DNA from: Mariprofundus sp. | Lineage (GTDB): Bacteria; Pseudomonadota; Zetaproteobacteria; Mariprofundales; Mariprofundaceae | DNA length: 13,142 bases | Assembly: GCA_030951095.1 (NCBI GenBank) | Contig: JAUZQI010000099.1 | Location: 1-13,142 of the forward strand | Direction of reading: 5' to 3' | In this document: piece after piece, positions 11,669-13,142 of the stretch | Numbering within the stretch: position 1 is the stretch's first letter | Layout of the letters: each line of letters starts with the position of its first letter | Notes under the pieces: model-generated | The model's database searches: none | Told to the model about the DNA's origin: nothing | The model's input: the letters and a program-made list of their open reading frames with translations, nothing else | Translations under genes and position numbers: made by a program

Positions 11669-12184
11669 TCAGTCTGTAGATATCGAACCTTCATGCGAAT
11701 CGTCATACATCACTTGTGACATACGCGCCTGAAAGGCCGCTTTTCTGAGCGTGCGATCCTTAATACTTGCTACGTCATGTGCAAGCCTACGCTTTTCCGT
11801 CAAAGATAACGGTGCCGGCTTACGGGGTATTTGTTTCGCCTTGATGCCGGCACCGGGCTGTACCCGGGATCGAATCCGGTACAAATCAGTCATACCGGCG
11901 TGTTTATAGCAGGCTTTGCGGATGTCATCCCTGAGGAAGCGAATTTGTTGCGCCATGATGGAGTGATCCACTGCGACCCATAGGCATATGCCACCATCAG
12001 CCAGAGCTTCGATCTGCAAGGGTTCTGTGCGCGCGGACATCATGGCTCCGACAACCTGCGGCCAGGCACGGCGAAGGCGGGCGATACCAATGAGTTTTTG
12101 CATGGATTCTTCGCCCAGAATCCCGGCCAGATTATCGTGCAGTCCGGTTAGCTGTGAACGGGAACGTTTGTTTCGTCTGCTCAA
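11669..12184 (-). CDS. dciA: DUF721 / DciA-like protein (putative replicative helicase loader)
   Basis: Predicted 171-residue basic protein of the DUF721 family. Members called DciA help load DnaB helicase in bacteria lacking the phage-derived loaders DnaC or DnaI. Seen: LRRAWPQVVGAMMSARTEPLQI (Trp41, VVG 44-46, Thr53), then LWVAVDHSIMAQQIRFLRDDI, the two core blocks of the domain, then a VYRIRSR-like strand (LYRIRSRVQ) and a long charged C-terminal extension rich in Lys/Arg. The start is a TTG at 12184 sharing bases with the hinT stop (TTGA), which implies translational coupling; internal ATGs (such as Met28) would cut into the domain. It lies between hinT and the Tim44 gene on one transcript. 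The domain assignment is good; the helicase-loading role is inferred from the family. Confidence 0.8.
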   Translation of the reverse strand: MSRRNKRSRSQLTGLHDNLAGILGEESMQKLIGIARLRRAWPQVVGAMMSARTEPLQIEALADGGICLWVAVDHSIMAQQIRFLRDDIRKACYKHAGMTDLYRIRSRVQPGAGIKAKQIPRKPAPLSLTEKRRLAHDVASIKDRTLRKAAFQARMSQVMYDDSHEGSISTD

Positions 12185-12510
12185 AACGGAAGCGTTTTAC
12201 CACCAAGGATGTGGACATGCAGATGGAATACTTCCTGTCCTCCGCCGGCTCGCACGTTGACAATAACACGGTAACCACTCTCAAGTTTGAGCACTTCATC
12301 AGCAATATGCTGCACACGGCTCATGAGCATGCCGAGCAGGGCAGGGTCTTTTGCATCACTGAGTGTTGCCACATGATCCTTCGGGATCACCAGCACATGC
12401 GTTGGTGCCTTGGGATGGATATCCTTGAATGCAAAAACATCCTCATCTTCATAAACCTTGCCGGAAGGTATTTCCCCTGCAGCTATCTTACAAAACAGGC
12501 AGTCACTCAT
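12181..12510 (-). CDS. hinT: HIT-family purine nucleoside phosphoramidase (HinT-like)
   Basis: Predicted 109-residue histidine-triad protein; HinT enzymes hydrolyse AMP-lysine type phosphoramidates and aminoacyl-adenylates. The ATG at 12510 is chosen because AAGGA sits 7-8 nt upstream; an in-frame TTG at 12531 precedes that site. Seen: CLFCKIAAGEIPS at the N-terminus (Cys4, Cys7); APTHVLVIPKDHV near 35-47; and GGQEVFHLHVHILGG with the triad His96, His98 and His100 intact. It ends KTLPF, about ten residues shorter than E. coli HinT, which has a longer C-terminal tail that influences specificity. It is the first gene of an apparent hinT-dciA-tim44 operon, with a candidate promoter at 12571-12600. 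Confidence 0.93.
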   Translation of the reverse strand: MSDCLFCKIAAGEIPSGKVYEDEDVFAFKDIHPKAPTHVLVIPKDHVATLSDAKDPALLGMLMSRVQHIADEVLKLESGYRVIVNVRAGGGQEVFHLHVHILGGKTLPF

Positions 12511-12520
12511 GGTATGATCC

Positions 12521-12545
12521 TTCGGTTCCAAATCTGTGGAACGAA
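12521..12545 (-). promoter_or_regulatory. Hairpin in the hinT leader
   Basis: TTCGGTTCCA (12521-12530) pairs with TGGAACGAA (12537-12545) except for one bulged G, with a 6-nt loop. It starts immediately upstream of the hinT Shine-Dalgarno site, so it could affect access to that site or mRNA stability. No T run follows, so it is not a terminator. Confidence 0.4.
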
Positions 12546-12570: not shown

Positions 12571-12600
12571 ATTATGAATCCCGGCGAGAAGGTGGAGCAA
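12571..12600 (-). promoter_or_regulatory. Candidate promoter of the hinT operon
   Basis: On the minus strand TTGCTC (12595-12600) and CATAAT (12571-12576) are 18 bp apart, about 60 bp before the hinT ATG. The -10 is a good match, the -35 moderate. The rest of 12601-12774 holds no gene I can support; an 8-bp inverted repeat ACTTGAGG/CCTCAAGT (12615-12622, 12646-12653) is its only visible structure. Confidence 0.4.
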
Positions 12601-12774
12601 AGAAGGAGATTGGCACTTGAGGCGGAGTAATTAGTCAGGTTGGGTCCTCAAGTCTGCTGGAAAATTTGAGCGGATAGAATCTGGAAGCTGTGCCAAGTAA
12701 GTTGGAAAAGTACAATGCATGCGGGTGGAATAGAAGTGATCCCGATGAGGTCAATGGGCACAGGGTTTTTCGTA

Positions 12775-12814
12775 ATAAAAAAGGCCTTGATAAACGCAAT
12801 GTTATCAAGGCCTT
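12775..12814 (-). terminator. Rho-independent terminator downstream of the tRNA-fMet remnant
   Basis: A perfect 13-bp stem (TTATCAAGGCCTT at 12802-12814 with AAGGCCTTGATAA at 12781-12793) and an 8-nt loop are followed on the minus strand by six T residues. It begins 5 nt after the CCA end of the tRNA fragment, so it is most likely the native terminator of that tRNA gene and marks the chromosomal side of the junction. Confidence 0.9.
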
Positions 12815-12819
12815 ATGTT

Positions 12820-12866
12820 TGGTTGCGGGGGCTGGATTTGAACCAACGACCTTCGGGTTATGAGCC
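12820..12866 (-). pseudogene. 3' half of an initiator tRNA-Met(CAU) gene; probable integration (att) site
   Basis: Read on the minus strand, 47 nt match the 3' half of tRNA-fMet: GG, the loop CTCATAA with anticodon CAT (12860-12862), stem CCCGA, variable loop, a complete T arm (GTTGG/CCAGC around TTCAAAT, with a compensated pair relative to E. coli) and the acceptor strand to GCAACCA. A72 and the CCC of the anticodon stem are initiator hallmarks. Upstream of GG the sequence (…AAATGT) no longer pairs with CCCGA and no D arm or 5' acceptor strand follows within the window. The gene is therefore broken at about position 29-30 of the tRNA. This is the fragment left at the distal end of an element that integrated by crossover at the anticodon region. 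Confidence 0.85.
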
Positions 12867-12940
12867 ACATTTAGCACTATAGAATCCCTTTATTTTCAAC
12901 AGTTTATGTGGTGTTCAAATTCTGTTTTCAGGCTGACTAA

Positions 12941-12959
12941 GTCACAATAATGTCACAAT
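12941..12959 (+). repeat. Tandem GTCACAAT octamers, 11 bp apart
   Basis: GTCACAAT occurs at 12941-12948 and again at 12952-12959, one helical turn apart, about 75-93 bp from the tRNA breakpoint. Paired short repeats on one face of the helix near an att site are compatible with integrase arm-type or accessory-protein sites, but two copies are little evidence. Confidence 0.4.
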
Positions 12960-12986
12960 CAATTTCCATAGAGCACGATCACATGT

Positions 12987-13042
12987 GAATGACTGCTTCC
13001 GGCCAAACCCGGACAGTCGATATTCAGTTAACGGTTGAACTG
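12987..13042. repeat. Bulged imperfect hairpin followed by a second short hairpin
   Basis: GAAT-GACTG-(CT)-TCCGG at 12987-13002 pairs with CCGGA-CAGTC-(GAT)-ATTC at 13009-13025 around a 6-nt loop: 14 bp with a 2-nt and a 3-nt bulge on opposite arms. It is followed at once by CAGTT/AACTG (13025-13042). The form resembles a REP-like or other dispersed hairpin repeat; the family is not identified. Confidence 0.45.
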
Positions 13043-13120
13043 AGTTGCCGTTTAGAGCGACAAGCGCAGCGCCTACACGGTCAGCTCGAGTGATTTGGTA
13101 TAGAGTAATTTTTCTCTTCT

Positions 13121-13140
13121 TACTCATACTCCGATGAGTA
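13121..13140. repeat. 7-bp inverted repeat at the window edge
   Basis: TACTCAT (13121-13127) and ATGAGTA (13134-13140) flank a 6-nt spacer. It could be an operator or small hairpin, or part of something cut by the window end; nothing more can be said. Confidence 0.25.
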
Positions 13141-13142
13141 GG

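Follow-up and report, generated by a model that had tools for sequence, protein, structure and literature searches.

Genomic islands that sit in a tRNA gene, leave its displaced 3' half at one end and cross over in the anticodon loop form a large known class: the accessible text of the Islander report (PMC4383910) counts 3760 islands with a 3' tRNA fragment and 2083 with an anticodon-centred site. In the accessible part of PMC9897764, tRNA fragments of island origin are called pervasive. Such a fragment can also end up away from its partner, as in SPI-19 of Salmonella, for which the available text of PMC2907695 describes a truncated serX copy parted from the intact one by an inversion.

Here we describe a broken initiator tRNA gene (tRNA-fMet) in a stretch of 13,142 bp, referred to as the window, from a Mariprofundus-like MAG related to iron-oxidising bacteria of the sea. 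Like the Islander-class tRNA islands, as presented in the accessible text of PMC4383910, it shows a displaced 3' half at one end and a break at the anticodon loop; unlike them, it is known from one end, the other end, the integrase and the body lying outside the assembly. Islands found in four congeners (G012, G013, G016 and G020) use the same gene as the window, are broken at most two bases from the same point and follow the same orientation logic, but the DNA at their ends differs from that of the window. The metV gene of Escherichia coli is one that we take to be an initiator tRNA gene. PAI-metV of uropathogenic E. coli, named in the accessible text of PMC2907695, is likewise an island called after such a gene, a likeness by island name alone, and it differs from the window in organism, element and cargo. 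In a literature search of mainly open-access papers, no report of tRNA-fMet islands in this genus was found.

The contig and the tRNA-fMet fragment

The window is the whole of contig C193, whose sequence ends at position 13142, and comes from an assembly of 193 contigs and 1.65 Mb that is 78% complete. The contig carries ordinary chromosomal genes, encoding a FadL-like porin, an acyl-CoA dehydrogenase, a YfiO-type lipoprotein, a laccase-domain protein, two pseudouridine synthases, RNase E/G, Tim44-like, DciA and HIT proteins. The last of these, the product of hinT (12181 to 12531, minus strand), which lies on the other side of the tRNA fragment from the contig end, is nearest to that of Mariprofundus erugo and other Zetaproteobacteria.

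The displaced 3' part of tRNA-fMet occupies positions 12820 to 12866 on the minus strand. Its 47 nt begin two bases ahead of the anticodon loop and extend as far as the encoded CCA, and the match to the initiator tRNA is far beyond chance. The loop itself starts at 12864; the two G's at 12865–12866 also match the stem, and these, like the one extra matching base in G016, may be there by chance. ARAGORN called no tRNA in the window, nor in its last 1.14 kb when introns of up to 1 kb were allowed, and Rfam gave no match in the window at the gathering score. Three sub-threshold Rfam matches (E 0.77–7.8) in 12600–13142 were dismissed, none of them being a tRNA or an intron. When the sequences of relatives were aligned to the window, nearly all alignments that reached the tRNA stopped at 12866 or within two bases of it. 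These results confirm the claim of the earlier note that only the 3' 47 nt of a tRNA-fMet are present: the 45 nt from loop to CCA fit the pattern of the genus and the 5' half is missing. The fragment ends at the edge of the anticodon loop, a known crossover sublocation of tRNA islands.

Bare tRNA-fMet halves and islands in congeners

We compared the window with 22 relatives of the same genus (23 genomes together with its own MAG). A degenerate 45-nt pattern running from the loop to the CCA gave 32 matches in 19 of the 23 genomes (18 of the 22 relatives and the window genome), and the same pattern extended 13 nt into the 5' half gave 27 matches in 18 genomes, none of them from the window genome. 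Five of the 32 matches are thus bare halves with no 5' part, one each in the window, G012, G013, G016 and G020. All five retain the complete anticodon loop CTCATAA, are preceded by differing bases and diverge no more than two bases away from the loop's 5' edge. More than one tRNA-fMet 3' half was found in 11 of the 22 congeners. The surroundings were analysed in 20 stretches from 17 relatives, two copies at contig ends of G006 being left out, and intact copies in these stretches were called by ARAGORN.

In all four congeners an intact tRNA-fMet of the same orientation is found upstream of the bare half on the same contig, at a distance of 27,563 bp in G012, 11,730 bp in G020, 10,672 bp in G013 and 28,211 bp in G016. 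The four genomes are all rated 99% complete, and that of G012 is a single contig. In each island, a protein that exceeds the Pfam cut-off for PF00589 is encoded no more than about 300 bp from one of the ends. The gene starts 232 bp from the bare half in G012 (353 aa), 227 bp from the bare half in G020 (363 aa) and 206 bp from the intact tRNA in G013 (354 aa), and in G016 the C-terminal end of a 739-aa protein lies 265 bp from the intact tRNA. This layout is the picture expected of a crossover near the anticodon loop with regeneration of the tRNA. The initiator tRNA, which had been regarded as an uncommon target, is not so in this genus, since a clean displaced half was present in 4 of the 22 relatives.

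The islands differ in content and in the structure of their ends. That of G020 has genes for a relaxase (TrwC) and a coupling protein of the TrwB type and, because of these two predicted products, is probably mobilisable by conjugation. In G016 two large recombinase-like proteins follow one another, the one of 739 aa above and one of 801 aa below the Pfam cut-off, together with a 226-aa frame that has no Pfam match; a GInt-type element, as characterized in the accessible part of PMC5385486, was considered for this island. Short direct repeats are common to both ends in G012 (GGTTTGCAA) and G020 (GGGTTTCA), with a sharing of 7- to 9-mers above that in all 300 shuffles. The sharing in G013 (TTTGTCACA) is weaker, being reached by 12 of 300 shuffles for 9-mers, 57 for 8-mers and 199 for 7-mers, and the ends of G016 had nothing in common beyond chance in the same kind of test. 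G016 carries only TGTGCCCA, repeated four times, at the intact-tRNA end.

Several further observations concern the same loci. A motif resembling TGCCCGA(T/A/G)GGTC was seen by eye near the element ends of three islands, G012 (L110), G016 (L115/L116) and G020 (L112). Just past the bare half of G020 (L112 15758–16967), behind a pair of TTGCTCCA repeats, lies a second tyrosine recombinase gene that begins at L112:15861, which suggests a tandem second element or a remnant of one. Tandem tRNA-fMet pairs with starts 133–138 bp apart occur in six congeners, G013, G003, G002, G010, G017 and G019 (L113, L114, L119, L120, L128 and L129). The T-arm of a third tRNA-fMet copy in G010 (L120 7060–7186) is interrupted by a palindromic AAGCTGAAGCTTGCC-like insert, and a decayed tRNA-fMet piece in G003 (L114 13927–13990) carries an insert similar to it.

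Proposed origin of the fragment

Because four congeners show a broken half together with an intact copy and a recombinase, and the breaks coincide, the feature in the window is very probably the distal (attR-type) junction of a genomic island put into tRNA-fMet by a tyrosine recombinase, with crossover in the anticodon loop. By analogy with these islands, we infer that the window copy has the same origin, and the same applies to the class of recombinase, the direction of the body and the question whether the element is whole. A tyrosine recombinase would have acted in the anticodon-loop region of tRNA-fMet, and the element's own tRNA 3' half would restore a functional tRNA at the opposite end, beyond the contig. 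Displaced to the far end of the element, the older 3' half and its terminator would remain at 12777–12866, and the body of the element would run to the right of 12866, missing as the contig ends.

The claim that an integrase had made this boundary holds in part. The comparison with the four same-genus islands argues for it, including the break at the anticodon-loop edge, the placement of the body right of 12866 and the expectation of an intact tRNA-fMet on the minus strand farther on, but neither that copy nor an element integrase is present in the assembly.

Search for the other end

The block pattern, searched with up to two mismatches across the window's own assembly, returned only the copy in the window. 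A congener's whole tRNA-fMet with its upstream DNA, used as a query against the same assembly, returned only 12805–12866, and the 5' tRNA half was not found in contig C193. A search of the window's genome for Phage_integrase (PF00589) gave two proteins, in frames of 307 and 300 aa, which by eye look like XerC/XerD. The 78% complete assembly thus yielded no intact tRNA-fMet and no element integrase. When the other end was sought through the genes that flank tRNA-fMet in relatives, the matches were partial, the best being 42% (247 of 1047 residues) and 25% (180 of 251). No bacterium can do without an initiator tRNA, which means that this repeat cannot have been fully assembled; the missing partner is therefore not evidence against an element.

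Phage sequences were also compared. Pseudomonas phage Y6 has a 100% match to the 47-nt block but was rejected as an attP half, since ARAGORN calls a complete tRNA-Met and a tRNA-Leu there; PfAn1 was rejected likewise, being annotated with a full tRNA-Met. The best 20 of the 33 phage records matched cover only the tRNA part of the query. Phages described in the accessible text of PMC12429752 are integrated in other tRNA genes and bring additional fMet tRNAs with them, and extra fMet tRNAs in phage-related sequences are mentioned in the accessible part of PMC11476347.

The hinT side of the fragment

The earlier note had predicted an empty site in which hinT, the terminator and a whole tRNA-fMet are contiguous. 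This arrangement was not seen among the 16 same-genus genomes in which both genes were matched, in none of which does hinT lie beside tRNA-fMet, although most of them are drafts whose contigs may adjoin in the chromosome; the comparison bears on the left flank and not on integration. The two genes are on different contigs in 14 of the 16 genomes, and in the two single-contig ones (G008 and G012) some 0.9 Mb separates them. In G018, the relative with the most similar hinT, this gene is preceded by hisE. In the window genome hemL-hisI-hisE are found on contig C159, followed by EamA-like and YajQ-like frames (genes named by eye in both genomes), so the hisE-hinT order of G018 is not kept here. 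No end of an element showed up behind hemL-hisI-hisE on C159. The genes around hinT thus vary, and a rearrangement or the loss of an older element is possible.

SPI-19, in the accessible account of PMC2907695, is a precedent for a truncated tRNA piece far from its partner, as may be the case with the odd hinT neighbourhood of the window. It differs in that the gene is serX, the scar holds 15 nt of the gene's 3' end and the inversion is large; no inversion is shown in the window.

A variant of the attR-type reading, which shares part of its probability, is that the element has been lost or has decayed and that the displaced half was left behind after a deletion or rearrangement near hinT. Degenerate tRNA-fMet remnants in G002, G003 and G010 are consistent with such a course, as is the departure from the hisE-hinT order of G018, but the fragment keeps all 45 nt of the pattern exactly, unlike the decayed remnants, and its right flank, described below, is unmatched and low in G+C. 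We consider an old scar of this kind rather unlikely.

The odd neighbourhood also bears on whether the contig is chimeric, with a real tRNA-fMet locus joined, across the repeated 3' half, to a half that is followed by foreign DNA elsewhere. That hinT was seen beside tRNA-fMet in no relative would agree with such a join, as would the multiple tRNA-fMet 3' halves in 11 of the 22 congeners, the division of the MAG into 193 contigs and the end of this one 276 nt beyond the fragment. However, the right-hand join, in which other DNA directly precedes a bare 3' half, would still be an att-type junction, and the same bare-half architecture is found within single contigs in four congeners that are all 99% complete. 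An assembly chimera thus appears very unlikely.

The right flank

The 276 nt to the right of 12866 (12867 to 13142), at the right end of the contig, would be the inner end of the integrated element. In a search of 41 genomes, in 4 of which a few candidates were left unscored, this stretch matched 4 of 40 relatives (E ≤0.001), always in just a 32–44 bp motif at about 12985–13028. Its G+C content is 0.42, whereas stretches of the same length further left average 0.50, and 1.6% of them are as low. The DNA beside the fragment is thus foreign to the relatives, as is that of tRNA islands. It gave no match to plasmids, and against the fetched congener loci no match below E 0.1 except for the short motif in contig C113 of its own genome; the exact 21-nt junction had no match in viral contigs.

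Within this flank, a direct repeat pair of ATTGTGAC with 11-nt spacing (12941 to 12959, minus strand) may form an arm-type pair comparable to those spaced by 12 nt in the elements of relatives. This likeness is weak: the repeat content of the flank is not above chance, 125 of 300 shuffles having at least as many repeated 8-mers, and an 8-mer pair with a spacing of 11–12 nt, a feature picked after being seen, occurred in 20 of 2000 shuffles. A 61-aa open frame (12942 to 13127, minus strand) gave no relative when searched against viral contigs, phages, plasmids and a large protein collection, where it matched only itself, and it may not be a gene.

The motif shared with relatives is palindromic (approximately GACTGCTTCCGGCCAAACCCGGACAGTC, window 12986–13018) and recurs once in the window's own genome, on contig C113 (L007 3339–3370). 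Among the relatives, G001 has three copies of it, G012 and G019 have two apiece and G011 has one, and two of the G001 copies (G001:C2:382667–385160) are inverted and about 2.5 kb apart. As a repeat dispersed across the genus, the motif tells us little about the element. Its recurrence on C113 and in 4 of 40 relatives is what would speak for a transposon insertion, or an unrelated rearrangement, that broke the gene at the loop by chance; yet the motif lies about 120 nt away from the break, and the break falls at the loop edge as in four congeners with different flanking DNA, which makes an accident of this sort highly improbable.

Group I introns are known in the anticodon loop of cyanobacterial tRNA-fMet, and those in tRNA anticodon loops split the loop. 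Least probable of all, and hardly to be entertained, is a self-splicing intron of this group with its 5' exon past the contig end: the break does sit at the loop, but the fragment keeps the whole 7-nt loop, no group I intron was matched in 12600–13142 at E ≤10 (a range that covers only 276 nt of the putative intron), uninterrupted copies of tRNA-fMet are present in 18 of 22 congeners, and the bare halves of congeners are island ends.

Terminators next to tRNA-fMet

The fragment is followed, just after the CCA, by an intrinsic terminator recognized by eye (about 12777 to 12814, minus strand), in which AAGGCCTTGATAA and TTATCAAGGCCTT are followed by a T run. Similar hairpins follow tRNA-fMet in relatives. 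Beyond it, CCTGTGCCCA (12755 to 12764, minus strand) extends the alignment into the post-terminator sequence, so that terminator and CCTGTGCCCA together align with the sequence after the tRNA in G004 and G016, in the latter on the island side. In G016 a terminator like that of the window stands with CCTGTGCCCA beside the intact tRNA, and the displaced half has another terminator. The window terminator, taken in the earlier note for the gene's own, may accordingly not be so.

The post-terminator sequence of G004 and G016 contains repeats of TGTGCCCA, which we propose as candidate arm-type sites for the integrase of an older element; G005 has a closely similar terminator without TGTGCCCA. This motif, picked after being seen, was obtained in 6 of 2000 shuffles of a 242-nt stretch. 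A second type of terminator, GGGCTYRCRG, stands after the displaced half in G012, G016 and G020 and after the tRNA in G001, G008 and G018. In G012, G016 and G020 the nearest intact copy has a different terminator from that of the displaced half, which is most simply explained if each element arrives with a terminator of its own along with the tRNA half. The GGGCTYRCRG type also precedes element-like repeats, at another intact copy of G012 (at 708068), in G003, in G019 and behind the bare half of G020, and G013 breaks the pattern, so it is not certain which type of terminator is that of the chromosome.

Because the window terminator and CCTGTGCCCA resemble an element-borne end, we see about an even chance that the displaced half of the window derives from an earlier element. 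A wider model is that tRNA-fMet is a hotspot throughout the genus, where elements carry, besides the tRNA 3' half, a swappable terminator and element-specific repeats and with each new integration the tail of the gene is replaced like a cassette, the window being a nested case whose earlier element was lost. We put this forward tentatively, as somewhat less probable than its opposite.

Significance

The window is most likely an ordinary genomic-island boundary and marks one end only; the interest of the finding lies mainly in the genus-wide hotspot and in a possible exchange of terminators. Since tRNA-fMet is needed to start proteins, every integration must rebuild a working gene and terminator. 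With this finding, the tRNA genes that mobile elements repeatedly use as docking sites come to include the initiator tRNA gene of a genus of marine bacteria.
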